Origin: Desulfarculaceae bacterium
GTDB lineage: Bacteria; Desulfobacterota; Desulfarculia; Desulfarculales; Desulfarculaceae
Reading direction: 5' to 3'
Length of the DNA stretch: 64,000 nucleotides
NCBI GenBank assembly: GCA_021737645.1
Contig: JAIPDO010000002.1
Location: forward strand, 62,001 to 126,000
Below, piece after piece: positions 2,886 through 63,056 of this stretch. Each line of letters begins with the position of its first letter. The first letter of the stretch is position 1. The notes under the pieces were generated by a model. That model was given only the letters and a program-made list of their open reading frames with translations. It ran no database searches and was not told the origin of the DNA. A program made the position numbers and the translations under genes.

Positions 2886-3593
2886 ATGCTGTCGGTGAGC
2901 TTGAAAAAGCGCCTGGGCGAGTTGGACGTGGAGGCCTCCTTCGGCCGGACCGGGCCGGGGGTCACCGCCCTGTTCGGCCCCTCGGGGGCGGGCAAGACCT
3001 CGCTGGTGAACATGCTGGCCGGGCTGCTCACCCCGGATTACGGGCGCGTGATCTTGGAAGGCCGGGTGCTCTTCGACTCCCAGGCCAAGATCAACCTGCC
3101 GCCCCAGCGCCGCCGGGTGGGCTACGTGTTTCAAGAGGGCCGCCTGTTCCCTCACCTGTCGGTGAAAGGCAACCTGGACTATGGCCGCCGCTTGGCTCCC
3201 AAGGGTAGCGCCTGGGCCTCCTGGGATCAGGTGGTGGATCTGCTGGGACTGGAGGAGCTATTGGAGCGACGGCCCGCCAAGCTCTCGGGCGGCGAGAAGC
3301 AGCGGGTGGCCATTGGCCGGGCCCTGTTGGCCAGCCCCCGCCTGCTGTTGTTGGACGAGCCGCTGGCCTCTTTGGACGCCCAGCGCAAGGACGAGGTGCT
3401 GGGCTACTTGAGCAAGCTCACCGGGCACCTGGCCATCCCGGTGATCTACGTTAGCCACCAGCCCGGCGAGATCCTGCGCCTGGCCGACAGCGTGGTGCGG
3501 GTGGAGCGGGGCCGGGTGCGGGGCATAGACGATCTGGAAGGCTTCCGCCGCCTGCTGGACTCCTGGCCCAAGGAGCGCCTTTGGCTGAGCTAA
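2886..3593 (+). CDS. modC: Molybdate ABC transporter ATP-binding protein ModC, lacking the TOBE domain
   Basis: The 235-residue ATPase has Walker A GPSGAGKTS (about residues 31-39), a Q-loop (VFQEGRLFPHLSV), the signature LSGGEKQR, Walker B LLLLDEP and the switch histidine (VSHQ). It powers molybdate uptake through ModB. Typical ModC is about 350 residues with a C-terminal molybdate-binding TOBE/MOP domain; here the protein ends soon after the nucleotide-binding domain, so TOBE-based feedback by molybdate should be absent. It converges with the ResB-like gene on the minus strand with a 10-base gap and no obvious terminator. Confidence 0.92.
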   Translation: MLSVSLKKRLGELDVEASFGRTGPGVTALFGPSGAGKTSLVNMLAGLLTPDYGRVILEGRVLFDSQAKINLPPQRRRVGYVFQEGRLFPHLSVKGNLDYGRRLAPKGSAWASWDQVVDLLGLEELLERRPAKLSGGEKQRVAIGRALLASPRLLLLDEPLASLDAQRKDEVLGYLSKLTGHLAIPVIYVSHQPGEILRLADSVVRVERGRVRGIDDLEGFRRLLDSWPKERLWLS

Positions 3594-24728: not shown

Positions 24729-25475
24729 CTAGACGCCGAAGTAGGCGCTTTTGATCTCGGGGTTGTCCATCAACTCGGGCCCTGGCCCGGTGAGGGTGAG
24801 CATCCCGTTCTCGATGACATAGGTGAAGTCAAGCCAGGGCAGCAGAGGCCTGGCGAACTGCTCGGCGATGACCAGGGTGACCCCGGTGTGACGCCGCACG
24901 TCCTTGATGGCCTTCACCACCTGGTTTTGCATGGCCGGGCTAAGCCCCAGCAGGGGCTCGTCAAGCAAGAGCAGCTTGGGCCCCACCATCATGGCCATGC
25001 CGATGGCCAGCATCTGCTGCTCGCCGCCGGAGAGGAACCCGGCCTTGCGGCTCCGGTGACGGGCCAGGTTGGGGAACAGATCGAAGCTGAGCTCGATCCC
25101 CTGGCGCACCTCGGGCCAGGAGCGCAAATAACCCGCTATTTTTAAATTTTCCACCACCGTGGAGTCGGGGAAGATGGGGTGACGCTCTCGGCAAAGCACG
25201 ATGCCCGCCCTGGCCCGGCGATAGGCCGGCAGATTGCTGATGTCCTCGCCGAAAAACGACACCTCGCCCATAACGGTGATGCGCTCGCCGCCCCGGCGTT
25301 TCTCTTTGATGAGCATGTCCCAAATCAGGCCGCTCAGGGTGTTCATGAGGGTGGTCTTGCCCGCGCTGTTGGAGCCGATGACCCCCACTATCTGGCCTTC
25401 GCGCACCTCCATGGACAGGTCGTTGACCGCGATGGCGTTTTCGTAGAAGACGATTAGGTCCTTGACCGTAAGCAC
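24729..25475 (-). CDS. livF: Branched-chain-type ABC transporter ATP-binding protein LivF
   Basis: The 248-residue ATPase has Walker A GSNSAGKTT, signature LSGGEQQMLAIG and Walker B LLLLDEP. Compared with usual LivF it has an insertion after Walker A (around KEKRRGGERITVMGE) and lacks the common TEG after Walker B (LLGLSP instead). It starts with GTG behind GGAGGAG. It energises the importer of the livKHMGF set 1. The transported ligand is unknown. Confidence 0.9.
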   Translation of the reverse strand: MLTVKDLIVFYENAIAVNDLSMEVREGQIVGVIGSNSAGKTTLMNTLSGLIWDMLIKEKRRGGERITVMGEVSFFGEDISNLPAYRRARAGIVLCRERHPIFPDSTVVENLKIAGYLRSWPEVRQGIELSFDLFPNLARHRSRKAGFLSGGEQQMLAIGMAMMVGPKLLLLDEPLLGLSPAMQNQVVKAIKDVRRHTGVTLVIAEQFARPLLPWLDFTYVIENGMLTLTGPGPELMDNPEIKSAYFGV

Positions 25476-25477
25476 GT

Positions 25478-26236
25478 TTACTCCTCCGCCTCGCTGCCCA
25501 GATAGGCGCCTTTGACCTGGGGGTCCTCCATCACCTGGGCGGGCTCGCCCTCGGCGATCTTTTGGCCGAAATTGAGCACCAGCACCCGGTCGGCGATGCG
25601 GAACAGCTCCCTGAGCCGGTGTTCGATCATCACCAGGGTCTTGCCCTGATGCACCAGCTTTTCGATCACCGGCACCAGGGAGGCCACCTCGGCCAACGAC
25701 AGGCCCGAGAACAGCTCGTCCAAAACGATCACCTCCGGCTGCAGGGCCATGCACTTGGCCAACTCCAGACGCTTGAGGTAACCGTGGGGCAGGCTGGCCG
25801 CCTGGTGGGAGATAACCCAGGAGTCCCGCTCAAAGCCAACCTCCTCCAACAGATCCTTGGCCATGGCGTCGCGGTCGCCGTAGCGCCCTCCGGCCAGGCG
25901 GCGCACCCTAGGCGAAAGCAGGGCCACGTTTAGGTTCTTGAAGGCGGGCAGTTGGTAAAAAGGCTTGACCATCTGGAAGGAGCGAGCTATGCCCCGGTCG
26001 GCCACCTTGTAGGGTGGCAAGTTGGTTATGTCGTGGCCCTCGAAGATGACCTTGCCCTTGCTGGGCTTTACAAAGCCGGTGAGAAGGTTGGCCAGGGTGG
26101 TCTTGCCCGAGCCGTTGGGCCCGATGACCCCCAGCACCTCGTTGCGCCGAAGGCTGAAGCTCACCCCGTCCACCGCCTTGACCCCGCCGAAGTAGCGCGA
26201 GAGGTTCTCCGCCTGCAAAATCACTTCGCCTTTCAT
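25478..26236 (-). CDS. livG: Branched-chain-type ABC transporter ATP-binding protein LivG
   Basis: The 252-residue ATPase has Walker A GPNGSGKTT (about residues 38-46) and the LivG-type C-terminus (AEGEPAQVMEDPQVKGAYLG). The signature region reads LPHGYLKRLELAK rather than LSxGxxxRxEIAR and Walker B is followed by ELFSG instead of EP, so this NBD site is atypical. A switch histidine (MIEHRL) is present. It overlaps livM by 4 bases. Confidence 0.88.
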   Translation of the reverse strand: MKGEVILQAENLSRYFGGVKAVDGVSFSLRRNEVLGVIGPNGSGKTTLANLLTGFVKPSKGKVIFEGHDITNLPPYKVADRGIARSFQMVKPFYQLPAFKNLNVALLSPRVRRLAGGRYGDRDAMAKDLLEEVGFERDSWVISHQAASLPHGYLKRLELAKCMALQPEVIVLDELFSGLSLAEVASLVPVIEKLVHQGKTLVMIEHRLRELFRIADRVLVLNFGQKIAEGEPAQVMEDPQVKGAYLGSEAEE

Positions 26237-27237
26237 CGCTCCACCCCCACCCAGCGCTCAAACTGGTTGTACTTGCGCGACAGGTAGTGGAAGATTCCCT
26301 CTGGGAGTCCCACCGTGAACACCACCAGTATCACTGCGTAGATCACCACCCGTAGCCCGCCCAGGCCCCGGAGGAGCTCGGACAGGGGCACCAGGATGAA
26401 GCTGCCCAACATGGGCCCGGCCAAAGTGCCCATTCCGCCCACGGCCACCGAGGCGATGGGGATCATGGAATAGTCCAGGGCGAACACCGGCATGCCCACG
26501 AACTGGTAGGCGTGGGTCATGAAGGCCCCGGCGAAGGCCCCCACCGCGGAGGCCATGAACAGGGCCTGGGCCTTGTAGAAGTAGATGTTCATGCCCGCGC
26601 TCATCACCGCCCGGTCGTTGTCGTTGATGCCTTTGAGCAGCAGGCCGTAGTCGGCGCCCATCATGCGCCTAAAGCCGAACAGGGCCACGAACACCACCAC
26701 CGCGGCCAGCCAAAACTCCAGGTGCTCGTTGCCCAGGGTGGACAGGCCGCTGATGCCCTCGGTGCCCCCGAAGATCTTGGTGGCCTCGATGACCCGCTCG
26801 ATCATCATGGGCAGGATCAGGGTGACCATGGCGAAGTAGATGCCCCTGAGGCGCAGCACCGGCAAAAGGGCCAGAGTGCACAACAGCCCTCCGCCAATGG
26901 TGGCGATGGGTATGGTGAGCCCCGGCGGCAGGCCCAGGTAGTGGTTCAGGGTTCCGGCGATGTAGGCCCCCACCCCGAAGAACAGGGCCTGGCCCAGAGA
27001 GACCATGCCCGCAGAGTTAAGAAGGTCCCAGCTTATGGCCAGCAGGGCGAACATGCAGGTGGAAATGAGCACCCGTTCCCAATAAGGCCCGGCCACCAGC
27101 CCCAGCACGAACAGGGCCACCACCGGCACCACCCTTGGGGCGGCCAGGTAGAGCATCTCCCGCCAGGAGGTCAGGACGAACACGTCGTCGCTGCGAACCT
27201 TGATTCCCCGGTCTATGCGCTCTTTGCGTTGTGCCAT
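26233..27237 (-). CDS. livM: Branched-chain-type ABC transporter permease LivM
   Basis: The 334-residue membrane protein has about eight to nine helices and the LivM landmarks ISWDLLNSAGMVSLGQALFFGVGAYIAG and the coupling-loop region SAGMNIYFYKAQALFMASAVGAFAGAF. The N-terminal 25 residues are polar and cytoplasmic. It sits between livH and livG with overlapping ends. Confidence 0.92.
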   Translation of the reverse strand: MAQRKERIDRGIKVRSDDVFVLTSWREMLYLAAPRVVPVVALFVLGLVAGPYWERVLISTCMFALLAISWDLLNSAGMVSLGQALFFGVGAYIAGTLNHYLGLPPGLTIPIATIGGGLLCTLALLPVLRLRGIYFAMVTLILPMMIERVIEATKIFGGTEGISGLSTLGNEHLEFWLAAVVVFVALFGFRRMMGADYGLLLKGINDNDRAVMSAGMNIYFYKAQALFMASAVGAFAGAFMTHAYQFVGMPVFALDYSMIPIASVAVGGMGTLAGPMLGSFILVPLSELLRGLGGLRVVIYAVILVVFTVGLPEGIFHYLSRKYNQFERWVGVER

Positions 27238-28109
27238 CAGATGCGCTCCTCAAGCTGCTTTTGGTGCCCAAAGAGCCCCGAAGGCTTGATCACCAAAATC
27301 GCCAGGATGGCCACCAAGCTGACCAGCATCATCCAGCTCGTCTCCAGGTAGGTGGCGGTGAGTATCTGGGCGAAGCCGATCAGGAAGCTGGCCACGATGA
27401 TCCCCACGGTGCTACCCAACCCGCCCACGATGCACACCGCCAGGGCATTGACCAGCACGTTGTAGCCTTCGTTGACCGCGATGGTGCCCAGGGGAAGGAT
27501 GACCAGGGCGGCCAAGGCCCCGTAACCGGCCCCAAAGGCCACGGACAAGGCCGCAACCTTGTCGCCGTTTATGCCCAGGGTAAGCGCGGTGCGCTCGTCC
27601 TGGGCAATGCCCCTAAAGGCCAGGCCGGTCTTGGTGTAGTGGGTGAAGAACCACAGGAAGGCGGCCAGCAGAATCCCGGTGGCCACGATGCACAGCCGCT
27701 GGGCATCCACGTAGGTGTCGCCGATCATTACCGAGGCGTCGATGATGGGCGGCAGGGTGTACTCGAAGCCGATGAAACCCAAGTAGCGGAAAAGCTCCAA
27801 GATGGCCAGACCCACGCCGAAGGTGGCGATGACCTCGCTGACCACCAGGCCGCGCACCCTGAGCAGGATGAACCAGTAGATCAGCGCCGCCACCGCCGCG
27901 GTGATGACCACCGCCGCCGGGGCCGCGATCCAGTAAGGCAAGCCCAGGGCGTTGAGCCCCAGCCAGGAAAGAAAGCCGGTCATCACGTATAACGCGCCAT
28001 AGGCGAAGTTGGCCACTCCACTGATGCCAAAGGTGACCGAGAAGCCCAGGGCCACCAGCATCAGGATGACGCTGTTGATAAATCCATAGATCAGGGTGCC
28101 TTCAAGCAT
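27237..28109 (-). CDS. livH: Branched-chain-type ABC transporter permease LivH
   Basis: The 290-residue permease has about eight membrane helices, the N-terminal LVALGFSVTFGISGVANFAYGALYVMTGFLSW and the coupling helix RGIAQDERTALTLGINGDKVAALSVAFGAG typical of LivH. It is the second gene of liv set 1, 120 bases after livK; that gap contains GC-rich inverted repeats that may reduce downstream expression. Confidence 0.93.
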   Translation of the reverse strand: MLEGTLIYGFINSVILMLVALGFSVTFGISGVANFAYGALYVMTGFLSWLGLNALGLPYWIAAPAAVVITAAVAALIYWFILLRVRGLVVSEVIATFGVGLAILELFRYLGFIGFEYTLPPIIDASVMIGDTYVDAQRLCIVATGILLAAFLWFFTHYTKTGLAFRGIAQDERTALTLGINGDKVAALSVAFGAGYGALAALVILPLGTIAVNEGYNVLVNALAVCIVGGLGSTVGIIVASFLIGFAQILTATYLETSWMMLVSLVAILAILVIKPSGLFGHQKQLEERI

Positions 28110-28229
28110 GGTTCGCCCGTGCCTCGCCGGCGGGAGAGCCCGCCGCCCGCTTGGGGTTATGGGAAAGGGGCCGGGGGGGCGCCCTGGGTTGGCAGGGCCA
28201 TCCCCCCGGCTACGGGATCACATGGGTGG

Positions 28230-29501
28230 CTACTTGGCCGACTTCATGCCGGCGGGCAGCTTGATCTTGCCCTCGGCGATGGCCGAGGGATAGACGATGA
28301 GCCGCTTGCCGTCGTCGGTCCACTGGAAGAAGCAGCCCAGGGCCTGCTTGTTCGGGTCCTTGCCGTAGATCACCTGGTTGCCCTTGGTGAACTTGATGCG
28401 ACCCATCACGCTCTGCACGTCGGTGGCCCGAAGGGCGTCCACGATGGCATCGGGGTCCAGGGAGTTAGCCTTTTCGATGGCGTCCTTGAGCAGGTACACC
28501 GAGGCGTAGGCCGGGGCCGGGCCATGACCCGCTTCCAGGGGCTTGCCGTACTTGGCCAGGTAGGCGTCGTAGAAGGTCTTGGAGGGGGGGTACTTGGCGC
28601 TGGGGATGCTGCCCAGTTCGAACACCGCGTTGAGCACTCCACCGATCTTGCCGTCAAAGGTCTTCCAGGCGCCAGGGCCGGTCAGCGGGCTGATGAAACC
28701 GGCCATGACCGCCGGAATCCTCATGCCCTTCCACTGCTTGACCAAGATGCCGCTCTGGGGCATGTCGAACACCGGCATGATCACCTGGGCGCCCTTCATC
28801 TTGGCCTTCATCAGGGCCGGGGCGAAGTCGCTGGCGCCGGTGGGGAAGGTCTCGTGTCCCACCACTTCCCACTTCAGCTTGCCCTTGAGGATCTTGGTCA
28901 TGATGCCCGCGGTGGCCCGGGCCCAGGCCACGTCCTGGTTCATGATGAAGACCTTGTTGAAGCCGAACTCTTTGCCCAAAAAGCCCATGACGCCCGCGAT
29001 GTAGCCCACGAAGTACTTGGCGTCCAGCGATACCCGGAACACGTACTTATACTTGGGGTCCTTGGCCACCTTGGCCTCGGTCTTGGGGCTCATGGCGATG
29101 GTGCCCAGCAGAGGCACCTTGTGCTTGGAAAGCATGTCCATGCCCGCCAAGAGAGCCTCGGAACGGAAGGGGCCCACCACCAGGGCGTGGGGCTTTTTCT
29201 CCAGAATCAGTTTTTCCATGCCCAGCAGGGCTTCGGGCACCGGCACGCCCGGCGCCGCGTCGCGTATGTCGATGGACTCCACCGCGAAAGGCAGCATCTT
29301 GCCGCCCACCTTGACCCCGCCCTTGGCGTTGATTTCCTCCACGGCCATCTTGACCGCGTTGTTGGCCTCCTTGCCTTCCAAGAAGTTCAAGGAGGTGGTT
29401 ACCCCGATTACGATTTTGTCCGCCGCCACTGCCCCGGTGGGAACCAGGAACAAGGCGGTAAGTAGCAGGGCAATAGCGGTTAAGCAGGTAAACTTCCTCA
29501 T
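28230..29501 (-). CDS. livK: Branched-chain-type ABC transporter substrate-binding protein LivK
   Basis: The 423-residue periplasmic protein has a signal peptide (about 1-26) and the type I binding fold (VIGVTTSLNFLEGKEANNAVKMAVEEINAKGG). It is the first gene of liv set 1. It is closely paralogous to the protein at 30103-31386 (shared ALVVGPFRSE, PLLGTIAM, NQDVAWAR, SGHGPAP-like stretches), which instead belongs to a two-component cassette. A sigma54-like promoter lies about 110 bases upstream. Confidence 0.93.
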   Translation of the reverse strand: MRKFTCLTAIALLLTALFLVPTGAVAADKIVIGVTTSLNFLEGKEANNAVKMAVEEINAKGGVKVGGKMLPFAVESIDIRDAAPGVPVPEALLGMEKLILEKKPHALVVGPFRSEALLAGMDMLSKHKVPLLGTIAMSPKTEAKVAKDPKYKYVFRVSLDAKYFVGYIAGVMGFLGKEFGFNKVFIMNQDVAWARATAGIMTKILKGKLKWEVVGHETFPTGASDFAPALMKAKMKGAQVIMPVFDMPQSGILVKQWKGMRIPAVMAGFISPLTGPGAWKTFDGKIGGVLNAVFELGSIPSAKYPPSKTFYDAYLAKYGKPLEAGHGPAPAYASVYLLKDAIEKANSLDPDAIVDALRATDVQSVMGRIKFTKGNQVIYGKDPNKQALGCFFQWTDDGKRLIVYPSAIAEGKIKLPAGMKSAK

Positions 29502-29614
29502 CTAAAGTCCTCCCCGTTAAGGTGGGGGGCGATGTGCCCCATACCTAAAAAAGTGCGCCCACCCCCTGTCCCCTGCTGCCGCTGCTAGTTGCGCGGGGTG
29601 ATGCTGGGCATTAA

Positions 29615-29630
29615 TGCAAGTAGCGGTCCA
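29615..29630 (-). promoter_or_regulatory. Candidate sigma54 (-24/-12) promoter for livK set 1
   Basis: On the minus strand the sequence TGGACCG-CTAC-TTGCA matches the layout TGGCACG-N4-TTGCA: the -12 box is perfect and the -24 box matches at 5 of 7 positions including the essential GG. It points toward livK, whose start is about 115 bases downstream. A sigma54-dependent response regulator is encoded 1.7 kb upstream. Confidence 0.6.
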
Positions 29631-29703
29631 CCCGAGGCTATTTAGGGCAACATGCTGTTTTATTTATACTTTTCTGCATGAAGCCAAGCAGGTGGTTTTA
29701 CAA

Positions 29704-29754
29704 GGTGTCACCATGGGTAACACCAAACGGTGCTCCGGTGGGGCCCCCACCGGA
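29704..29754. promoter_or_regulatory. Two adjacent palindromes, possible enhancer-binding sites
   Basis: GGTGTCACC and GGTAACACC around ATG form an imperfect palindrome at 29704-29724. TCCGGTGGGG and CCCCACCGGA flank a single C in a perfect interrupted palindrome at 29734-29754. They lie about 90-130 bp upstream of the sigma54-like promoter, a usual distance for NtrC-type activator sites. Assignment to the nearby regulator is inference. Confidence 0.5.
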
Positions 29755-29848
29755 TAAATAGCTATTTAGCAGCAATTACCGAGGGGTTAAGTGGGCAAGT
29801 AACTTTTGGTAACGGATCAGGGGCCGTTGTGTGCAAAGGTAACACTCT

Positions 29849-30102
29849 GCCCGGATATTTCATGAAGGCTGGGCGGCAAACTAACAACGAATTAATCTGC
29901 GGTACTTGTGAAAAAAGCTTTCGTCCTAATTTAGATGCAATTCGCACCCGGCCCGGCACAGCCAGCCACCGGCAGACAAGGCGTCTGGCAAGCGAGGGCC
30001 GCAGGCGTAGCCAAGGCTACGTCGAGGCCCGAGCGCAGCCGGCAACGAGGTATGCCAGGGGCTGGCGCAGCCGGACGTCCAACCTTCATGAAATATCCGG
30101 GC
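29849..30102. mobile_element. MITE-like repeat, copy A
   Basis: The element is 254 bp with perfect 20-bp terminal inverted repeats (left 29849-29868, right 30083-30102; core ATATTTCATGAAGG). It has no coding capacity. Inside is a hairpin: GGGCC, CGTAGCC-AA-GGCTACG, GGCCC (29996-30030). A diverged copy of the same size and orientation lies at 34651-34903. The right end abuts the stop codon of the minus-strand binding-protein gene. Confidence 0.7.
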
Positions 30103-31386
30103 TCAGGGGCGAGGCACAAAGGCGGGCAGTTCTATATCCCCTTCGGAGATGGCCGGGGGAAAGACAATGCGCCGCTGCCCCTGGGGGGTCCACTGGATCA
30201 CCGCGGCCAGGGCCTCGCGCTTGGGGTCCTGGCCGAAAAAAGCCTGGTGGTCGGGGTGAAAGCGCACCCGGCCCATGCAGCCCGCGCGGTCGGTGGCCTC
30301 CAGGGCCTTGACCAGGGCAGAGGGCTCCAGGGTGCCGGCCCGCTCCATGGCCTGGGCCAGGATGTACACCGCCTCATAAGAGGGCGCCGGGCCGTGGCCC
30401 GACTGCACCGGCATGCCCCAGCGGCGCTGGAAGGCCTGGTAAAAGGCGGCCGCCGGGGGGTAGCGGCGGCTGGGCAGGTTGCCCAGCCCAAAGATCACGT
30501 TGAGGCTGCCCGCCACCTGGCCCTCGAACTTCCGCCAGGCCTCGGAGCCCACCAGGGGGGAAACGAAGCCGCAGAGCAGGGCCGGGACCTTTAGCCGCCT
30601 CCACTGGCGGGCCAGGCGGCCGCTGTGGGGCGAGTCGAAGATGCACAGTAGCACCTGGGCCCCCTGGGCTCTGGCCTCCTCCAGAGCCTGGGAAAAATCA
30701 GCCGCCCCGCTGGGAAAGCTTTTTTGCCCCAACACGTGCCAGCCCGCCCGGCGGAAGAAAAGGCGGATCATCTTGGAGGCGGTGGTGCGGGCCCAGGCCA
30801 CGTCCTGGTTGAGGATGTAGACCCGCTTGAATCCGAAGCGCTGCTCCAGAAAACGCATGCTGCTGATGAGGTAATCCACCAGATAGCGGGTGTTGAGCCC
30901 CACCCGGAAGATGTTGCCATAGGCTGGGTTCTTGAGCACCATGGCCTCGGAGGCCGGGGTCATGGCGATGGTGCCCAGCAGGGGGATGCGCCGCTTGGCC
31001 AGCAGGTCCATGGAGTTGAGCAGCACCTCGGAGCGGAAGGGACCCACCACCAGGGCGTTGAGGCCGGGGTTTTGCAGGAATCGGCCCAGGGAGGCCACCG
31101 CGTCTTCCACCGCCACCCCCAGGGCCGCGCCCCTCAGGTCGTGGGACACCACCTTCAGTGGCAGGCGCTTTTTGCCGATGCGCACCCCGCCCGCCGCGTT
31201 TATCTCCTCCACGGCCAGGCGCACCGCCATAAGGCTCTCGCGCCCCTCCAGCAGGGTGAGGCTGGTGGGCACCCCCAGCACGATGGCCCGGGGCTGGGAC
31301 TCGGCGGCCCACCCCGGCCCGGCCAGCAGCACAAGCCCGGCCAGCAGCAGGGCCGCGGCCCTAATCGTTGCCGTCGGCCACGCCAT
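30103..31386 (-). CDS. LivK-like periplasmic binding protein linked to a two-component system
   Basis: From ATG 31386 (GGAG four bases upstream) the protein has 427 residues: a signal peptide (about 1-28, GPGWAAES) and a type I periplasmic binding fold. It is paralogous to LivK at 28230-29501 over its whole length. Its 5' end overlaps the sigma54 regulator gene by 26 bases and no permease genes follow, so it more likely feeds the sensor kinase than a transporter, although it could share the neighbouring Liv permease. The stop codon touches repeat copy A. Confidence 0.88.
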   Translation of the reverse strand: MAWPTATIRAAALLLAGLVLLAGPGWAAESQPRAIVLGVPTSLTLLEGRESLMAVRLAVEEINAAGGVRIGKKRLPLKVVSHDLRGAALGVAVEDAVASLGRFLQNPGLNALVVGPFRSEVLLNSMDLLAKRRIPLLGTIAMTPASEAMVLKNPAYGNIFRVGLNTRYLVDYLISSMRFLEQRFGFKRVYILNQDVAWARTTASKMIRLFFRRAGWHVLGQKSFPSGAADFSQALEEARAQGAQVLLCIFDSPHSGRLARQWRRLKVPALLCGFVSPLVGSEAWRKFEGQVAGSLNVIFGLGNLPSRRYPPAAAFYQAFQRRWGMPVQSGHGPAPSYEAVYILAQAMERAGTLEPSALVKALEATDRAGCMGRVRFHPDHQAFFGQDPKREALAAVIQWTPQGQRRIVFPPAISEGDIELPAFVPRP

Positions 31387-32749
31387 AGCGCTCCAACTTT
31401 TCATAGAGCCCCTTGCGGGAGATGCCCAGGCGTTTGGCTGCCTGACTTTTGTTGCCCCCGCACTGGGCCAGGGTTTTTTCGATGAGTTCCCGCTCCATGT
31501 CCTTGATGGTGGCCCCTTCCTCGGGCAGGCCGCTGATGATGCCGCCGATGGTCGGCCCAGCGGGCTCCTCCTCCCCGATGAGGTCGGAAAAATCCTCCAA
31601 GCCCAGGCGCTGGCCCTTGGACAAGATCACCGCCCTGGCGATGACGTTTTCCAGCTGGCGTACGTTGCCCGGCCAGGCATGCTCCATCAGGGCCTGGATG
31701 GCCCGGGGGCTGACTCCCAAGACCGGCTTGGAATAGCGTTGGGACATGCGGTCCACGAAGTACTCCACCAATAGGGGGATGTCTTCGCCGCGCCGGCGAA
31801 GGGGGGGCAGATCCAGGCCGATAACCTCGATTCGGTAAACCAGGTCGCCCAGGAACTTGCCCTTTTCGATGAGCCGTTCCAAGTCTTGGTTAGTGGCGGC
31901 CAGCAGGCGCACGTCCACCCGGCGGGGGGTGTTGCCGCCCACCGGCTCGAAGGTGCGCTCCTGCAGAAAGCGCAGCAGCTTGGCCTGAAGCGACAGGCTC
32001 ATGTGGCCGATCTCATCCAGGAACAGGGTGCCCCCGTCGGCCAACTCCAGGCGGCCCTTCTTGTCGCCGCCCGCCCCGGTGAAGGCCCCCTTGACGTAAC
32101 CGAACAGCTCGGCCTCCAACAGGGATTCGGTGAGGGCGGCGCAGTTGATGCACACCAGGGGCCCGGCGGTGCGGGGGCTTTCGGCGTGCAGGGCCCGGGC
32201 CAGAAGCTCCTTGCCGGTGCCGGTTTCGCCGTGGATGAGAACCGAGGCGTCGGTGGGCCCCACGGTGCGCACCAGATCGAACACCTCGGTCATCACCGGG
32301 CTGGTGCCTATGATGCCGTGGAAGGAGCCCTCTGCCTCCACCCGGCGGCGCAGGCTGGCCAACTCCCGGGACATGCGCCGTTGGCGGATGGCCTTATCCA
32401 AAACAATGGACAGTTCCTCGTAGTCCAGAGGCTTGAACAGATAGTCGGCCACTCCCTGCTTGAGGGCCTCCACCGCCGAGCGGGCCGTGGCGTGGGCGGT
32501 CATGATCACGAAAGGCGGGGCGTCGCTCTCATAGCTCATGCGCCGAAACAGGTCCAGGCCGTTCATGGCCGGCATCTTAAGATCAGCCAGCACCACGTCC
32601 AGGTCCGGGTGGGCATGGTACTGGGCCAGGGCCTCTTCCCCGCTGGTGGCCGTGAGCACCTCATAACCCTCGTCGGCCAGGATGGCCATGAGCACCTTGA
32701 GGGCGTTGATGCGGTCATCCACCACCAATATCTTGCGGGGGCTATCCAA
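31361..32749 (-). CDS. Sigma54-dependent response regulator (NtrC family)
   Basis: The 462-residue regulator has a receiver domain (phospho-acceptor D56 in VVLADLKMP), an AAA+ domain with Walker A GETGTGKE, the sigma54-contact loop GAFTGA and Walker B TLFLDEIG, and a Fis-type HTH at the end (NKSQAAKRLGISRKGLYEKL). It activates sigma54 promoters when phosphorylated, presumably by the kinase whose gene overlaps its start by 8 bases. A sigma54-like promoter in front of livK is the obvious candidate target. Confidence 0.95.
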   Translation of the reverse strand: MDSPRKILVVDDRINALKVLMAILADEGYEVLTATSGEEALAQYHAHPDLDVVLADLKMPAMNGLDLFRRMSYESDAPPFVIMTAHATARSAVEALKQGVADYLFKPLDYEELSIVLDKAIRQRRMSRELASLRRRVEAEGSFHGIIGTSPVMTEVFDLVRTVGPTDASVLIHGETGTGKELLARALHAESPRTAGPLVCINCAALTESLLEAELFGYVKGAFTGAGGDKKGRLELADGGTLFLDEIGHMSLSLQAKLLRFLQERTFEPVGGNTPRRVDVRLLAATNQDLERLIEKGKFLGDLVYRIEVIGLDLPPLRRRGEDIPLLVEYFVDRMSQRYSKPVLGVSPRAIQALMEHAWPGNVRQLENVIARAVILSKGQRLGLEDFSDLIGEEEPAGPTIGGIISGLPEEGATIKDMERELIEKTLAQCGGNKSQAAKRLGISRKGLYEKLERYGVADGND

Positions 32750-34589
32750 TTGGCTCCTCCTGGCCGGCCTGGGGGGCGGGTCTATAGGGTAATTTTATTA
32801 TAACCGTGGTTCCATGCCCCGGACGGCTCTGCACCTCCAGCTCACCGCCGTGGCCCTGCACGATACCCAGGCTCAGAGTGAGCCCCAGGCCGGTGCCCGC
32901 GTCCTTGGTGGTGAAGAAGGGATCGAAGATGTTGGCCTGTTGCTCGGGGGTGATGCCCGAGCCGTTGTCCTCCACGGCCAGGCGCACCTGGCCCTCCACG
33001 CCGGTAGCCGGGCGCTGCCAGGTGGTGGAAAAGGTGACGTAGCCGCCCTCCGCGGGCATGGCGTCCATGGCGTTGATCAGCAGGTTAACCAGGACCTGCT
33101 CCATCTGGTGGAGGTCCAGCATCACCAGGGGCAGGGTGTCGTCCAGCAGGTCGTGAAATCGTATCTCGCGCTTGGCCGCCTCGGCATGGAAAAGGGTCTG
33201 CACCGATTTGACCAGGGCGTTGAGGTCCGCGGCCATCGGTTTGGGCGGGGCCTGGCGGGCGAAGTAAAGGAACTCGGTGACAAAGCGGTTGAGGCGTTCG
33301 ATCTCCTCGCAGACGATCTTGCCGTACTCGTTTATCAGGGGATCTTCGGGCCGCCGCCGCTGCAGGTGGACCATGGCCCCTTGCATGGCGCTCAGCGGGT
33401 TTCTTATCTCGTGGGCCACTCCGGCGCTGAGCCGCCCCAGGGACACCAGCTTTTCGCTACGCACCAACTCGGCCTGGGTGCGCTCCAGGTTGCGGCTCAT
33501 GCGGTTGAAGGCCCGGGTCAGCTCGCCCAATTCGTCGCGCGAGGTGACCGGCAGCTCACGGGCCGATTGCCCGGCGGCCAGGCGTTCGGTGGCCGCGGCC
33601 AGGCTGCGCACCGGCTTGAGCAGGTTGTAGGAGAGGATGCTCACTCCGGTGACCGCCAGGATGAGGGCGATGATCATCACCTGGATCACGCGGTTCTGGA
33701 TGGCGTCGGCTTCCTGGCGGAACTCCTTCACCGGAATGGTGGCGGCCACGGACCAGTGCAGGGTGGGGATCGGGGCGAAGGCGGCCACCTTCTCCTCGCC
33801 CTGGAAGCGATAGGTGCGCCAGCCGGTGCCTCCGGCCATCATGTCGACCAATAGGCGGCGCAGGCTGTCCGGGCCTATATCCGGCCCCAGCTCATAGGGC
33901 TGGGCGTAGGGGTGGGCAATGTTGCGCCCGCTTTGGTCCACCAAAAAGGCGTAGCCCCGTTGGCCCACCTTGATGCCCCGCACCATTTCCGTGACGCGCG
34001 CGAAGTCCAGGTCGATGACCACCAGGCCGGTGAAGCGGTCCCAGGGGCTGTCCGTGGGCCGGGCGCAGTGCATCACCAAACCGCCCAACTCCGGCGCATC
34101 GACCAGGGAGGAAAAGTAGGCCCCATCCGGGACCAGACGGCGGGCGGCGGCCAGCAACGAAGCGGCCACCTGCCCCAAGGGCGGGTCGCTTTGGCCCCGG
34201 CGCACCTTGATGAGCTCCCGGCCCGAGGCGTCTATATAGCGCAGCTGCCAGTAGTAAGGGGTGCGGGCCAAAAAGTCCTGGAACAGGCGAACGATGTTGT
34301 CGCGGTTAAAACCTGCCTCGGCCTTGAGCCTAAAGGAACGGGCCAGGTTGTACTCCTCGATGAGCGGCAAGCCGGTGATGGTGACCAGGTCGATGCGGCA
34401 GGAGTTGAGCACGTCGTCTATCTTCTTGGCCGCCGCCTGCACCTGCACCATTTGCTCCTGGCGCACCAGGCGGTTCACCCGCTCCACCGAGGCCTGGATG
34501 GAAAAATAGCCCACCACCGCCGTGGGCAGGCACACCAAGGGCAAGATAAACAAAAGCAGCTTATAGAAAATGGAGGACTTTAGTTTCAT
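32742..34589 (-). CDS. Membrane sensor histidine kinase (Cache-HAMP-HisKA)
   Basis: The 615-residue kinase has a first membrane helix (about 9-30), an extracytoplasmic double-Cache-like domain (about 35-290), a second helix (about 300-320), HAMP, HisKA (VAHEIRNPLSAMQ) and a complete HATPase domain (NLLINAMDAMP, DNGSGI, GTGLGL). NtrB/DctB-like kinases of this build sense organic or amino acids. It is first in the kinase-regulator-binding protein operon, starting 62 bases beyond repeat copy B. Confidence 0.94.
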   Translation of the reverse strand: MKLKSSIFYKLLLFILPLVCLPTAVVGYFSIQASVERVNRLVRQEQMVQVQAAAKKIDDVLNSCRIDLVTITGLPLIEEYNLARSFRLKAEAGFNRDNIVRLFQDFLARTPYYWQLRYIDASGRELIKVRRGQSDPPLGQVAASLLAAARRLVPDGAYFSSLVDAPELGGLVMHCARPTDSPWDRFTGLVVIDLDFARVTEMVRGIKVGQRGYAFLVDQSGRNIAHPYAQPYELGPDIGPDSLRRLLVDMMAGGTGWRTYRFQGEEKVAAFAPIPTLHWSVAATIPVKEFRQEADAIQNRVIQVMIIALILAVTGVSILSYNLLKPVRSLAAATERLAAGQSARELPVTSRDELGELTRAFNRMSRNLERTQAELVRSEKLVSLGRLSAGVAHEIRNPLSAMQGAMVHLQRRRPEDPLINEYGKIVCEEIERLNRFVTEFLYFARQAPPKPMAADLNALVKSVQTLFHAEAAKREIRFHDLLDDTLPLVMLDLHQMEQVLVNLLINAMDAMPAEGGYVTFSTTWQRPATGVEGQVRLAVEDNGSGITPEQQANIFDPFFTTKDAGTGLGLTLSLGIVQGHGGELEVQSRPGHGTTVIIKLPYRPAPQAGQEEPIG

Positions 34590-34650
34590 CGCCGCCGGTC
34601 TGGACTAATAGGTTTGGTCAAATACGCCCAGGCGGCCGACTGTTGGCTCG

Positions 34651-34903
34651 GCCCTCATATTTCATGGGGCCGGGTGATACCAGGTCACGAACCAGCGTTT
34701 GGGTCAATTAGGCAAACAGCGCTCGCATTATCAAAGTTGAGTTTGCACCCATTACCGGCACAGCCAGGCAGTGTCAGGCAAGGCGGCGGAGAGCGTGGGC
34801 CGCGGGCGTATTATTACATACGTCAAGGCCCACGCGATCCCGCCAACGCAGCATGGCGCTTCCTGGCGCAGCCGGACGCCCGACCCTCATGAAATATTGG
34901 GGC
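34651..34903. mobile_element. MITE-like repeat, copy B
   Basis: The element is 253 bp and aligns over its length with copy A (29849-30102) in the same orientation. Terminal repeats are imperfect (16 of 20, core ATATTTCATG; 34651-34670 and 34884-34903). The internal hairpin is kept with different bases: GCGTGGGCC / GGCCCACGC and CGTAT / ATACG (34793-34835), i.e. compensatory change against copy A. The right end meets the stop codon of livF. The 313-base gap 34590-34902 contains nothing else I can identify. Confidence 0.65.
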
Positions 34904-35601
34904 TAGACCATGAGATAGCGCTTGCGCACCTCTTCATCGGCTCTAAGATCCTCGATGGTGCCGGAGTAGCGAATCACTCCGTTGTCAATGATGTAGCCTC
35001 GGTCAGCCAGCCCCAGGGCCACGTCCTGGTTCTGTTCGGCCAACAGCACGGTCAACCCGGTCTGTTTAAGGCTCTGTATCTGCTGGGCCAGCAAGCGCAC
35101 CACCAGCGGGGCCAGGCCCTCGGTGGGCTCGTCCAGCAGCAAAAAATCGGGATTGGTCATCAGGGCCCGGCCGATGGTGAGCATCTGCTGCTCCCCGCCG
35201 CTGAGGAACCCTGCCTGACGGCCGTCGATTTCGGCCAGGGGCGGGAAGAAGCTGTAGACTTTCTCCTTGGTCCACTGGTCGGAGCCGGGGCCGGGACGGG
35301 CCACAATCTCCAGGTTTTCCCCCACGGTGAGGTCGGCGAAGACCCGGCGGTCATCGGGCACGTAGCCCAGGCCCAGGCGGGCCCTGAGATGGGGCTTCAG
35401 GGTGGTGATGTCCTGGCCCTTGTATACTATGCTCCCGCGTTTGGGCGGGGTGAGGCCCATGATGGAGCGCATGGTGGTGCTCTTGCCCGCGCCGTTGCGG
35501 CCCAGGAGGGCCACCACCTCGCCGCTGCCCACCTTCAGGCTCACGTCGAAGAGGATATGGCTCAGGCCGTAGTAGGTGTGCACGCCTTTTAGCTCAAGCA
35601 T
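34903..35601 (-). CDS. livF: Branched-chain-type ABC transporter ATP-binding protein LivF (set 2)
   Basis: From ATG 35601 (GGGAGG 8 bases upstream) the protein has 232 residues with Walker A GRNGAGKST, LSGGEQQMLTIGRAL, LLLDEPTEGLAP and LLAEQN, all standard for LivF. A longer frame to 35655 reads back through livG and is not supported by a ribosome site. Its stop codon adjoins repeat copy B. It overlaps the end of livG by 8 bases. Confidence 0.93.
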   Translation of the reverse strand: MLELKGVHTYYGLSHILFDVSLKVGSGEVVALLGRNGAGKSTTMRSIMGLTPPKRGSIVYKGQDITTLKPHLRARLGLGYVPDDRRVFADLTVGENLEIVARPGPGSDQWTKEKVYSFFPPLAEIDGRQAGFLSGGEQQMLTIGRALMTNPDFLLLDEPTEGLAPLVVRLLAQQIQSLKQTGLTVLLAEQNQDVALGLADRGYIIDNGVIRYSGTIEDLRADEEVRKRYLMV

Positions 35602-36337
35602 CGCCATGGCCTCCCAGGTAGGCCTGCTGCACGTTCTCGTCGCAGCGGACCTCATCGCAGGTGCCCTGGGCGATGGTCTTGCCCTGGCGCATGACCATGA
35701 TGCGCTGGGCCAGGTTGAACACCAGCTCCATGTCGTGCTCGCAAAACAGTATGGTGATGCCCATGTCGCCGTTGAGGCGCTGGATCAGGCCCATGGCGGC
35801 CCTGGTCTCCTCGGGGCTCATGCCCGCGGTGGGCTCGTCCATGATCAGAAGCTCGGGCCGGTTACCCAGGGCGATGGCCATTTCCAGCACCTTGCTGTCC
35901 CCGTGGGACAGGGTGCCGCTGATCAGCCCCGCCTTATCGGCAAGGCCCACGTTGTTGAGAATTTCCCAGGTCTCCTCGCCGGCCAGGCGCACCGCCGGGG
36001 TGAACAGGCGCAAAACCTGACGCCGCCGGGCCAACACCGCCACCCGTACGTTCTCGAACACGCTCATGCGCGGGAACACGCTCACCACCTGGTAGGAGAG
36101 GCTCAACCCCCGGCGGCACACCCGGTGGGGGCTCAGCCCGGCGATGTCCTGGCCCTTGAATACCACCTGCCCCCGGTTGGGCTTTAGCTGGCCGGTGACC
36201 AGCTTGAACAGGGTGGTCTTACCCGCGCCGTTGGGGCCTATCACCGCCACGATCTCCCCTTGCTCCACAATCAGGTTGGCGTCGGACACGGCCAGGAAGG
36301 GGCCGAAAGACTTGCGCAGATGCTGCACGGATAGCAT
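35594..36337 (-). CDS. livG: Branched-chain-type ABC transporter ATP-binding protein LivG (set 2)
   Basis: The 247-residue ATPase has Walker A GPNGAGKTT, Walker B LLIMDEPTAGMSPEE and the switch histidine CEHDM. The signature region is LSHGDSKVLEMA in place of LSxGxQRxLEIA. It follows livM after 1 base. It drives liv set 2 together with LivF. Confidence 0.92.
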   Translation of the reverse strand: MLSVQHLRKSFGPFLAVSDANLIVEQGEIVAVIGPNGAGKTTLFKLVTGQLKPNRGQVVFKGQDIAGLSPHRVCRRGLSLSYQVVSVFPRMSVFENVRVAVLARRRQVLRLFTPAVRLAGEETWEILNNVGLADKAGLISGTLSHGDSKVLEMAIALGNRPELLIMDEPTAGMSPEETRAAMGLIQRLNGDMGITILFCEHDMELVFNLAQRIMVMRQGKTIAQGTCDEVRCDENVQQAYLGGHGDA

Positions 36338-36338
36338 G

Positions 36339-37295
36339 CTAGTCCCCTTCCCTTACGGCCCGGCCGCGTCCCAGGCGGGCGGTGAAAAAGCCCAACACCC
36401 CCTCGGGCAGGAAGAAAATCAAAAGCATGAGGATGATGCCCAGCACCATGGTCCAGTAGTCGGTGTAGATGCCCACCACAGCCCTGAGCGCCACTACCAT
36501 GCCCCCGCCCAGCATGGGCCCCAGGAAGGTGAACCACCCACCCAAAAGGCACATGATGATGATCTCCAGCGACAGGGTCCAGAAGAGCATGTCCGGGAAG
36601 ACGCTGCCCTCCACGGTAACGAACAAGGTGCCCGCCACTCCGCCGAAGAACCCGGCGATAACCAGGCCCACGAGCTGGTGCTGGCGCACGTTCACCCCGA
36701 TGGCTTCGGCTCGCTCCGGGTTGTCGCGTATGCTCTGGAACACCCGGCCAAAGGGCGAGTTGACGATGAGGTACATCACCGCCAGGCAGACCACGGTAAC
36801 GATGAGCACGAAATAGTAGGCCCCGTCAATGGAGCCGATGAGCCTGGGCACCGGCACTCCGTGCATACCGTCGTCGCCGCCGGTGAAGGAATACCATCGG
36901 AACACCACTGCCCACACCAGGCTGCCCAGGGAAATTTGCAGCATGCCGAAGTATAGCTTGCTCAGACGCACGCAGATCAGGCCCATGAGCAGGCTTAGCG
37001 CCGCAGCCACCACCGGCCCCAGCAGATAGCCCCACCAGGGGTTCACCCCACCGCGCACCGTTAGCAGGGCGGCGGCATAGGCCCCCACCCCGTAGAACAC
37101 CGCGTGGTTGAATTGGTACATGCCCCCATAGCCCAACACCAGGTTCAGGCTGGTAGCCAACAGGCCGGTGACCATCATCAGGGCCACCAAGTAGATGTAG
37201 TAGCGGCTGGCCATGCTGGGAAACAGCGCCAGCGCGGCCAACAGGAGCGCCACCAGAATCAGGCTGCGGGAGCCGAGCAGTTTTTGCTTTTGCAA
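36339..37295 (-). CDS. livM: Branched-chain-type ABC transporter permease LivM (set 2)
   Basis: The 318-residue permease has about nine helices with LLATSLNLVLGYGGMYQFNHAVFYGVGAYAAALL near the N-terminus and the coupling loop SIRDNPERAEAIGVNVRQHQLVGLVIAGFFGG. It forms the translocation pore with LivH, whose gene ends 13 bases upstream. Confidence 0.93.
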   Translation of the reverse strand: MQKQKLLGSRSLILVALLLAALALFPSMASRYYIYLVALMMVTGLLATSLNLVLGYGGMYQFNHAVFYGVGAYAAALLTVRGGVNPWWGYLLGPVVAAALSLLMGLICVRLSKLYFGMLQISLGSLVWAVVFRWYSFTGGDDGMHGVPVPRLIGSIDGAYYFVLIVTVVCLAVMYLIVNSPFGRVFQSIRDNPERAEAIGVNVRQHQLVGLVIAGFFGGVAGTLFVTVEGSVFPDMLFWTLSLEIIIMCLLGGWFTFLGPMLGGGMVVALRAVVGIYTDYWTMVLGIILMLLIFFLPEGVLGFFTARLGRGRAVREGD

Positions 37296-37308
37296 GATCG
37301 CCCTCCCC

Positions 37309-38202
37309 TTACCAAGTGCTCTTGAGCAGACCCTTGGGCCTGAACACGAGCACTATGGTCACCGCCACGTAGGGAAAGACGATGGCGAACTGGGGCCACA
37401 CCAGAATGCCGATGGAGTCGGTGATCCCGAAGATGGCCGCGCCCAACAGAGCGCCCCACATATTGCCCAGGCCGCCGATTATCACGATGAGGAAGGCCTC
37501 CATGATTATGGCGTGGTCCATGCCCTGGGTGATGTTCTGGGTGGGGGCCACCAAGGCTCCGCCCAGGCCGGCCATGAGGCAGCCCAGACAGAAGACAAAG
37601 GCGAACACCCAGCTCACGTTGATGCCCATTGCCGCCACCATCTCCCGGTCCACCGCCGCCGCCCGGGCTATCTTGCCGATCTTGGTCTTGTTGGTCAGCG
37701 CCCACAGGCCCACGGCCACCAAAGGCCCCATGATCAGCAAAAACAGGTTGTAGCGGGGGAAGGGCATGCCGCCCAGGGAGAAGGAGCCCTGCATCATGGG
37801 CGGGGCCGCCAGGGATCGGTAGTCCGAGCCCCAGATCAGCTTGACCACGTCGCCCAACACCAGCATGAGCGAAAAGGTGAACAGCAGGAGCATGAGGTGC
37901 TCGCGCTCGTAGAGGTGGCAGAAGATGCCCCGCTCCACGGCCAAGGCCAAAAAGCCCACCGCCACCGGAGCCACGGCCAGGGCCACCCAGAATCCGGTCT
38001 GGCCACCGATGAAGGTGGCCACCGAATAGGTGACGAAAGCCCCGATCATGTACAGGGAGCCGTGGGACACGTTGGGGATCCTGAGCACCCCCAGGATAAG
38101 GCTGAGGCCGGAGCTGACGATGAACAGAATGGTGGTGCGGCTGAGCCCCACCAGCAACTGTTGCCCCAAGGCAGCCAGGGTTATGTGGCTTGCCGAATCC
38201 AT
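37309..38202 (-). CDS. livH: Branched-chain-type ABC transporter permease LivH (set 2)
   Basis: The 297-residue permease has about eight helices, the LivH N-terminal signature SSGLSLILGVLRIPNVSHGSLYMIGAFV and the coupling helix ARAAAVDREMVAAMGINVSWVFAFVFCLGCLMAGLGG. It lies 101 bases downstream of livK of the same set. Confidence 0.93.
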   Translation of the reverse strand: MDSASHITLAALGQQLLVGLSRTTILFIVSSGLSLILGVLRIPNVSHGSLYMIGAFVTYSVATFIGGQTGFWVALAVAPVAVGFLALAVERGIFCHLYEREHLMLLLFTFSLMLVLGDVVKLIWGSDYRSLAAPPMMQGSFSLGGMPFPRYNLFLLIMGPLVAVGLWALTNKTKIGKIARAAAVDREMVAAMGINVSWVFAFVFCLGCLMAGLGGALVAPTQNITQGMDHAIIMEAFLIVIIGGLGNMWGALLGAAIFGITDSIGILVWPQFAIVFPYVAVTIVLVFRPKGLLKSTW

Positions 38203-61573: not shown

Positions 61574-62281
61574 CTAATGGCCCAGGTAGGCCCGTTGCAC
61601 GTCCGGGTTGGCCGCCAGGGCCGCGCCGGTGTCTTCCATGGTCACCCGGCCGTTTTCCAGAATGTAGGCACGAGTGGCTACCTTCAGGGCCCAGCGGGCG
61701 TTCTGCTCCACCAAAAGAATGGTGATGCCCTTTTCCTGGTAGATCTGCTGGATCACGTGATAGATGGCCTCGCGCACCACCGGGGCCAGGCCCAGGCTGG
61801 GCTCGTCGAGCATCAGGAGCTTGGGCGCGGACAACAGGCCCCGGGCGATGGCCAGCATCTGGGCCTCGCCGCCGCTCAAGGTGCCGGCCAACTGGGTGCG
61901 CCGCTCCTTTAGGCGGGGGAACAGCTCGAACACCTCATTGAGGTCCTTGGCCACTCCGTCGTCGTCGCGGCGAGTGAAGGCGCCCATGCGCAGATTCTCG
62001 GCCACGCTCAGGTCAGGGAACACCGCCCGCCCCTCAGGCACCTGGATGATGCCGTGGTTCACGATGGTGTGGCTGGGCTGGTTCTGGATCTCCCGGCCTT
62101 CCCAGGTAATGCGGCCTTCCAGGGCCCGGTTGACCCCGGAGATGGTCTTGAGCAGGGTGGACTTGCCCGCGCCGTTGGAGCCCAGCAGGGTGACCAACTC
62201 GCCACGGTCCACCCGCATGCTTACGTCGTGCAGGGCCACGGCCTTGCCGTAGGCGACCTTGAGGTTCTCAATGTTGAGCAT
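61574..62281 (-). CDS. livF: Branched-chain-type ABC transporter ATP-binding protein LivF (set 3)
   Basis: The 235-residue ATPase has Walker A GSNGAGKST, LSGGEAQMLAIARGLL, LLMLDEPSLGLAP and LLVEQNARWAL, all standard for LivF. It overlaps the end of livG by 14 bases and is followed by the M20 hydrolase 9 bases later, which makes transporter and catabolic genes one transcription unit. Confidence 0.94.
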   Translation of the reverse strand: MLNIENLKVAYGKAVALHDVSMRVDRGELVTLLGSNGAGKSTLLKTISGVNRALEGRITWEGREIQNQPSHTIVNHGIIQVPEGRAVFPDLSVAENLRMGAFTRRDDDGVAKDLNEVFELFPRLKERRTQLAGTLSGGEAQMLAIARGLLSAPKLLMLDEPSLGLAPVVREAIYHVIQQIYQEKGITILLVEQNARWALKVATRAYILENGRVTMEDTGAALAANPDVQRAYLGH

Positions 62282-63056
62282 CGGAGTCTCCTCCCAGATA
62301 GGCCTCGACCACCAGGGGGTCGTTGTAGACCTTTTCCGGTTCGCCTTCGGCTATTTTTTCGCCGTAGTGCAGCACGATAAGACGGTGGGAAATGCCCATG
62401 ATCACCTTCATCACGTGCTCGATGATCAGGATGCTGGTGCCCTGGGCGTTGATCTTCTGGATCAGGTCGATCTGGCCGGTGAGCTCGGCCGGGTTCAGCC
62501 CGCTGCTGGGCTCGTCCAAAAGCAGCAGTTTGGGCTGAGTGGCCAAGGCCCTGGCTATCTCCAAACGCTTGGTAAGGGCGTAGGGCATGTTGCCCGCCTG
62601 CTCGTCGCGGTATTTGCTTATGCCCACGAAATCCAGCAGCGAGTCGGCCGTGGCGCAGGATTCCTTGTCTTCGGTCAGGGCGCAGGCCCGGCGGAAGAAG
62701 CTGTCCCACACCAGGGACCAGGGCCCCTTGCGCCGCCGGTCCACCATGGCCGCCAGCACGTTCTCCAGGGCGGTGAGGCGGCTGAAGATGCGCACCACCT
62801 GGAAGGTGCGGGCGATGCCCAGGGTGTTTACGGTGTGGGCCTTGTCCCGGGTGATGTTGCGCCCCTCAAAGGTGATGGTGCCTTTGCTGGGGGGGAAGGC
62901 CCCGGAGATCAGGTTGATCAGCGTGGTCTTGCCCGCCCCGTTGGGGCCGATGAGTCCCAATATCTCGCCCTGCTCCAGGCTGAAGCTCACGTCGTTGACC
63001 GCGGTGAGCCCGCCGAAGTTCTTGGTGAGCCGGTCGGTGGTCAATATGGCGCCCAT
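62268..63056 (-). CDS. livG: Branched-chain-type ABC transporter ATP-binding protein LivG (set 3)
   Basis: The 262-residue ATPase has Walker A GPNGAGKTT, the LivG insertion between Walker A and the signature, the signature region MPYALTKRLEIARALA, Walker B LLLLDEPSSGLNPAE and IEHVM. The LSYG residues of the usual signature read MPYA here. It shares one base with the end of livM. Confidence 0.93.
   Translation of the reverse strand: MGAILTTDRLTKNFGGLTAVNDVSFSLEQGEILGLIGPNGAGKTTLINLISGAFPPSKGTITFEGRNITRDKAHTVNTLGIARTFQVVRIFSRLTALENVLAAMVDRRRKGPWSLVWDSFFRRACALTEDKESCATADSLLDFVGISKYRDEQAGNMPYALTKRLEIARALATQPKLLLLDEPSSGLNPAELTGQIDLIQKINAQGTSILIIEHVMKVIMGISHRLIVLHYGEKIAEGEPEKVYNDPLVVEAYLGGDSDAQH

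Follow-up and report, generated by a model that had tools for sequence, protein, structure and literature searches.

A covarying hairpin repeat lying mostly behind stop codons in a Desulfarculaceae genome

Introduction

Integron attC sites are long imperfect hairpins that directly follow a stop codon and fold better on the strand opposite the gene-sense one; their hallmarks are paired core sites and an integron integrase. YPAL, ERIC and NEMIS elements have terminal repeats, the potential to form hairpin RNA, and positions near genes. All three are named as MITEs in passages of PMC3733652, which also state that the termini of GTAG-REPs are known to supply TAG stop codons. For IS200/IS605 elements the lagging-strand template is the target and orientation is tied to replication (passages of PMC6006769).

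A further group has been described in Geobacter, where legends and passages of PMC2700814 give 24 short RNA elements in G. metallireducens (Gmet_R1005) that are multicopy, intergenic and marked by a central palindrome, GRCGTAGCGCTGCTACGCC. The same elements are also given for G. sulfurreducens, G. uraniireducens and Desulfotalea, and they are called predicted short RNA elements (PMC2700814).

Here we analyse a repeat found in a stretch of 64,000 nucleotides from a Desulfarculaceae bacterium (contig JAIPDO010000002.1, positions 62,001 to 126,000), referred to below as the window, and its relatives in this genome (G000) and in others. The reading that we favour, at a probability of roughly 0.4, is a family of short, non-coding, non-autonomous mobile hairpins of about 122 nt, which insert at stop codons into single-stranded DNA of the lagging strand and are maintained there.

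Results

Two shelled copies in the window

The preliminary description of this DNA had proposed a pair of repeat copies, A and B, with common ends; the pair is real, and A has exactly the limits proposed for it (Table 1). The stems that had been pointed out are also present, CGTAGCC/GGCTACG in A (30005-30023), and CGTAT/ATACG and GCGTGGGCC/GGCCCACGC in B. In both copies a hairpin core sits within a shell of terminal inverted repeats, nearer to the right end than to the left. Compared with dinucleotide shuffles, the folds of the A and B cores have z-scores of -6.9 and -7.4, and none of 200 shuffles folded as well. Three similar transporter gene clusters lie on the - strand of the window (24729-28109, 34903-38157 and 61574-64000; repeat families D1-D3, D7 and D9), the second of them directly behind copy B.

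Table 1. Features of copies A and B and of the genes next to them (window coordinates)
Feature	Position	Strand	Basis or remark
Copy A, core in terminal-inverted-repeat shell, 254 bp	29849..30102	+	BLAST, end pattern, cross-genome site comparison
Left terminal inverted repeat of A	29849..29875	+	93% match to complement of 30076-30102; end pattern, 0 mismatches
Hairpin core of A, 122 nt	29953..30074	+ (structured strand = window +)	fold, covariance model
Apical stem-loop of A, GGCGTAG / CTACGTC	30004..30023	+	fold; helix 7 of alignments, 97.6-97.7% of cells paired
Right terminal inverted repeat of A, 27 nt	30076..30102	-	outer end touches next gene's stop codon
Gene pointing into A, periplasmic binding protein, PF13458	30103..31332	-	stop codon starts at first base past A
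Copy B, core in terminal-inverted-repeat shell, 253 bp	34651..34903	+	repeat scan, end pattern
Hairpin core of B, 121 nt	34755..34875	+	fold, alignment
ABC transporter ATPase gene, PF00005	34903..35607	-	TAG stop overlaps outer end of B

The core is the unit of the family

In its own genome the repeat gave 46 match rows by BLAST and 131 rows with a covariance model (E<=0.001), some of the latter being the opposite strand of a place already listed. Removal of 6 opposite-strand rows and 8 weak rows left 117 places. A right-hand terminal repeat accompanies the core at 20 of these and no shell is present at the other 97, the shell being called by a loose pattern on the 3' side only (6 mismatches in 18). 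The proposed 254-bp family therefore stands as a real repeat with many copies, but the 254-bp element is not its unit; terminal inverted repeats belong to the 254-bp form and are absent from 97 of the 117 copies by the loose 3'-side scan, and the unit is the core of 122 nt. A model-based search of this genome and its relatives, as the preliminary description had suggested, found many further copies, about a hundred per chromosome.

Several shell copies have the ends TA-GCCC...GGGC-TA, and GCCC after TA restores a TAG. These ends, together with the shell in 20 of 117 copies, favour an ordinary MITE, in which all copies go back to elements with terminal inverted repeats that a TA-targeting transposase, presumably IS630-like, moved in double-stranded form, and shell-less cores are decayed forms that have lost one or both ends. 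Consistent with such decay, site 1 of locus L092 has one end only, holding a core, a leader and one end in G000 where G004 has a bare stop codon, and terminal repeats adjoin truncated cores in L048 and L052, which are internal-deletion derivatives. However, across the phylum the core is full length at both ends without a shell, insertion of double-stranded DNA does not give the replichore bias described below, and no transposase with these ends was seen around 9 end-like sites or between one end pair on contig C62; we regard an ordinary MITE as quite unlikely. An origin of all copies from the shell form was considered because deletion between two CCGG motifs would yield TAGC-CCGG junctions, and was rejected as a general account since GCGG-type cores lack that junction.

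Other repeats recur on the 5' side of the core. A second repeat, TGTTGGGTTTCGCTTCGCTCTACCCAACCTAC, which resembles a GTAG-tagged REP, lies about 200 nt or less 5' of the core in 22 of the 97 shell-less copies of G000 (e.g. L101:5690-5921), and a CGTC-like REP (GATTGCTTCGTCGC...) is also recurrent 5' of G000 cores. The same order of modules is seen again at orthologous sites. The first arm of the core is itself partly repeated directly (GTAAAAAGTC) about 16-22 nt upstream in L222, L228, L230, L233 and similar distant loci, which would give the 3' arm a choice of two pairing partners.

One strand of the core is kept foldable

Helices that covary around fixed internal loops preserve the fold of the core on one of its strands. 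The fixed parts are mostly AAGGCG in the left arm, CAAC in the right arm and GGCGTA/TACG at the tip, the helices being free to vary, and the covariance model spans 122 positions with 41 pairs. A MAFFT alignment of 37 copies made without structure, and so free of the model (A1), has changes on both sides in 21 of 41 pairs compared with 9.5 in shuffles, and 92.0% of its cells pair compared with 86.0% in shuffles; its covariation score is 0.212 for the true pairing and 0.024-0.048 for slid controls. Among 114 copies of the own genome both-side changes are seen in 33 of 41 pairs (double-change cells, 531 versus 168), and among 49 copies, 11 of them from the own genome and 38 from distant members of the phylum, in 37 of 41 (covariation score, 0.649 versus 0.170), although pair counts lean towards the model in the alignments fitted to it (A2-A4). 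The covariation claimed from A and B is thus strongly borne out, both within the genome and across the phylum, and so is the suggestion that a structure is maintained beyond what a dead transposon would show, in that further copies exist and covary strongly.

That the structured strand of the core is the window + strand, either as RNA or as single-stranded DNA, is indicated by three results. G-U is found more often than A-C (303 versus 135), although 48 of the 135 A-C cells come from two doubtful pairs, columns 33/119 and 38/114, and part of the excess could come from a mild excess of C-to-T change that is also seen in unpaired columns (14.8% versus 9.5%). The + strand has the better fold in 106 of 117 copies when folded as RNA and in 111 of 117 when folded as DNA. 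Two adjacent pairs change in concert to G.A and A.G, with both altered in 23 copies and only one of them in 5; read on the other strand, the switched pairs are C opposite T.

At one pair across the phylum G-U is commoner than G-C (25 versus 18 copies), which leans towards RNA. With the strand specificity of the covariation, and with the report of a family of predicted short RNA elements in Geobacter (passages of PMC2700814), this supports the main rival to a mobile hairpin, that the core is a functional RNA or 3'-end signal whose + strand RNA, for example terminator-like or antisense, stops head-on transcription into genes that are co-directional with replication and is kept by selection. By eye, however, no conserved promoter or leader was seen in the shell-less copies, and we consider an RNA role possible if rather unlikely, with further points on both sides given below.

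Most copies lie directly behind stop codons

Most copies lie directly behind stop codons, with the 3' end of the core towards the stop, and this junction at the core's 3' end in shell-less copies is what is new here. A gene points into the 3' end of 91 of the 97 shell-less copies in the own genome, and in 68 its stop codon is no more than 13 nt from the core, often 0-3 nt. Of the 61 genes that point into the 5' end, none has its stop within 13 nt. The same junction is found in the complete relative G005, where 83 of 90 genes on the 3' side point in and 56 are within 13 nt, compared with 1 on the 5' side. Genes were called, here and in other genomes, with a codon model trained on the window rather than with a standard caller. 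The abutting stops are TAG or TAA in 62 of 68 cases, compared with 251 of the 358 genes called across the stretches analysed (p 1.5e-4). The junction is inexact, with a gap of 0-13 nt and TGA at 6 of the 68 stops. It recurs in some distant copies (e.g. L224, L225, L227, L232, L235 and L240) and is absent from many, the gene calls there being weak. Shell copies are placed otherwise; 14 of the 20 lie between two genes read in the direction of the core, and the stop of the left gene is at the left end in 10 of the 20.

The arrangement of neighbouring genes bears on an RNA role in both directions. An RNA that stops head-on transcription is in keeping with the 56 of 97 shell-less copies that lie between convergent genes, but 32 of the 97 lie between genes of the same direction, without a known + strand transcript. 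A tight junction that is always at the core's 3' end, together with RNA-like pairing, also calls to mind retrotransposition, in which a reverse transcriptase would start at a DNA 3' end at the stop codon and use the folded + strand RNA as its template, bringing the RNA's 3' end to the target; the 5' ends of the cores are not ragged, which argues against it, and we consider retrotransposition very improbable.

Core orientation follows replication

The genome G005 is a single contig of 4.48 Mb with dnaA and dnaN at its start. Of 105 rows found there, 97 cores were kept, the 8 others being opposite-strand rows. Replichore predicts the orientation of 84 of the 97, the - strand prevailing in the first half of the contig and the + strand in the second, and 13 face the opposite way. 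To allow for the dependence between nearby copies, neighbours on one strand were merged into clusters when no more than 2 kb apart; the best two-arc split accommodates 70 of 82 clusters, and 0 of 2000 permutations were as good. This is not a by-product of gene direction, because only 98 of 211 sampled genes are on the leading strand, compared with 73 of 83 genes abutted by shell-less cores. With this orientation, the lagging-strand template carries the gene-sense strand of the core, the one that folds less well. Core density in G005 is highest near the origin, with 47 of the 97 cores within a quarter of the chromosome. Density near the origin is twice that expected, and the presumed terminus (C1:1823115-2454149) is without copies.

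Two distant complete genomes, G234 and G315, have a similar two-arc pattern, in 50 of 64 clusters (3 of 2000 permutations as good) and 52 of 66 clusters (2 of 2000) respectively, the tests using, among the matches listed, 65 of 67 in G234 and 72 of 75 in G315. GC skew is in rough agreement with these arcs, being positive inside the minus arc in 4 of 4 samples of G234 and 4 of 5 of G315, and negative outside it in 5 of 6 and 4 of 5. Genes are also strand-biased in both genomes, so that G005 alone separates replichore from gene direction. In searches of open-licence papers we found no report of a replichore rule for such elements.

Sites are filled or empty between genomes, with probable exchange of core sequence

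Copy A has no counterpart in G004, G005 or G007, where the site is empty. At site B, G004 has a diverged copy and G006 a shell-less core, and G005 and G007 have nothing. When the sites were checked for a target-site duplication, TA was found at both ends of site B in G004, and site A was not clear. At site 3 of L092, G004 has a 13-nt remnant (L195, about 3350-3375, G004:C131) beside the same stop codon, with the outer arms fused and the interior gone, as would be expected from deletion of a palindrome.

G000 and G005 have 34 core positions in common, one pair being chosen per location from 98 flank matches. In only 8 of these does the shared core rank first or second when all G005 cores are compared as matches, and most of the 34 are no closer than random pairs (mean 0.686). 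Some are mosaic-like, with arms alike and centres unlike, or the reverse. Because cores at shared positions are mostly no closer than random pairs, the positions appear to have been inherited or refilled while the sequence was exchanged or replaced. Some of the covariation may thus reflect whole hairpin segments passing from copy to copy, and not compensatory mutations arising one by one. For an RNA role these comparisons are again divided; positions are kept between species while the sequence changes, as such a role would allow, but sites are often empty in close relatives.

The core is widespread, and three tested carriers have no detectable Y1 transposase

The core is present in all 8 genomes of the genus, including G000, and in one genome of another genus in the family, with many copies in each; of the remaining 51 of the 60 genomes searched, one has the core, in 3 copies. 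In a sample of the phylum it was found in at least 56 of 297 genomes and at least 41 of 199 genera, which are lower bounds as 12 candidates were scored per genome under strict filters. A broader model, R3, raised the count from 2 to 75 copies in G315 and from 3 to 67 in G234. No Rfam match at E<=1 was found in the window at 28000-36000, nor any on the cores of 20 distant loci, and WsnRNA46-like and MIR1515-like Rfam matches in L252 were set aside because they lie on another repeat and not on the core. The former is a sub-threshold match to the Wolbachia sRNA WsnRNA46 at L252:1591-1735, on a palindromic repeat of the GTCATTCCCGC type. Searches with two queries in a phage collection, and with three cores in a plasmid collection, gave no match. 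A pattern search of genome contigs gave a single hit, on a Burkholderiales contig, which was taken as chance because it is not matched by the covariance model.

The preliminary description had also raised the prospect of a transposase with the same ends, and here the search came back empty. Among 32 end-like sites, one widely spaced convergent pair, on contig C62, was examined and encloses only housekeeping genes; no transposase was seen around 9 end-like sites.

REP or REPIN sequences moved by a RAYT (TnpA-REP) would share with the core a palindromic form and an intergenic location near the 3' ends of genes, and GTAG-REP termini supply TAG stops (passages of PMC3733652). However, no Y1_Tnp was found in the three carriers tested, G001, G005 and G010, and the own genome has a single weak match, over 42 of 121 positions (L061:1501-1626; G000:C11:7147-7272), which resembles the remains of an IS200-type gene. 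Y1_Tnp is also not enriched in carriers, occurring in 43 of 56 compared with 168 of 241 other genomes of the phylum sample. The core is 122 nt rather than 20-40, no GTAG tag is conserved beside it, and the base before the TAG stop varies. We therefore rejected membership of the RAYT/REP group, on the missing Y1_Tnp in the tested carriers and the missing tag, and movement by a RAYT is barely plausible.

Discussion

We favour a mobile hairpin, in which copies would enter the single-stranded DNA of the lagging-strand template at the TA-containing stops of genes running with the fork. Insertion behind a stop codon would break no gene, opposite-facing copies would be rare either because they are not inserted there or because they are deleted, and resident copies would swap segments with one another. 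The 254-bp form would be a core inside a TA-targeting terminal-inverted-repeat element, and the mobiliser would be something other than a Y1 (IS200/RAYT-type) transposase detectable in the three tested carriers. Single-strand entry at a TA stop, with loss of opposite copies, is the simplest account to cover the orientation, the stop junction and the empty sites. Against it, the better-folding strand is on the leading-strand template and not on the lagging-strand template where IS200/IS605 elements act, no mobiliser was found, the junction is inexact, 13 of the 97 G005 copies are reversed, and many positions are common to species (34 counted).

A fuller proposal, which we put forward only tentatively, is that of a phylum-wide mobile hairpin with a non-Y1 mobiliser that homes to lagging-template stop codons of co-directional genes, the copies keeping their positions but trading sequence in the form of paired segments. 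If so, it would be a new way in which a short DNA or RNA can spread through a chromosome and leave its genes unharmed, and would join a deeply conserved hairpin, a stop-codon insertion rule and the direction of replication, which are usually seen apart. The spread of short palindromes without a gene of their own and without a RAYT would become testable. The copies would also allow paired-segment exchange to be studied in a naturally occurring set of hairpins, and would warn that covariation need not result from point-by-point compensation. With the covariance model, about a hundred intergenic features per genome could be annotated in several genera.

The core is likely to belong to the family of Geobacter short RNA elements, as judged from legends and passages of PMC2700814; the complement of their central palindrome, GRCGTAG...CTACGCC, fits the core's apical stem. 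Those passages do not mention the stop-codon junction, the replichore rule or the exchange (PMC2700814).

Other systems resemble the core in one respect or another. Like REPs and REPINs, it is a dispersed intergenic palindrome near the 3' ends of genes, and REPs too end at TAG stops (passages of PMC3733652), but it is five times longer, its junction is one-sided and the tested carriers have no RAYT; the passages on REPs in PMC3733652 give no replichore rule, one-sided junction or exchange at fixed positions. In contrast to YPAL, ERIC and NEMIS, most copies of the core are without terminal repeats, and the hairpin itself is the unit conserved across the phylum. It shares with IS200/IS605 an orientation that follows replication (84 of 97 cores in G005), but has no Y1 enzyme in tested carriers and no coding sequence, and folds better on the opposite strand. 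Like attC, it is a hairpin at a stop codon with the better fold opposite the gene-sense strand, but the core is dispersed singly behind ordinary chromosomal genes.
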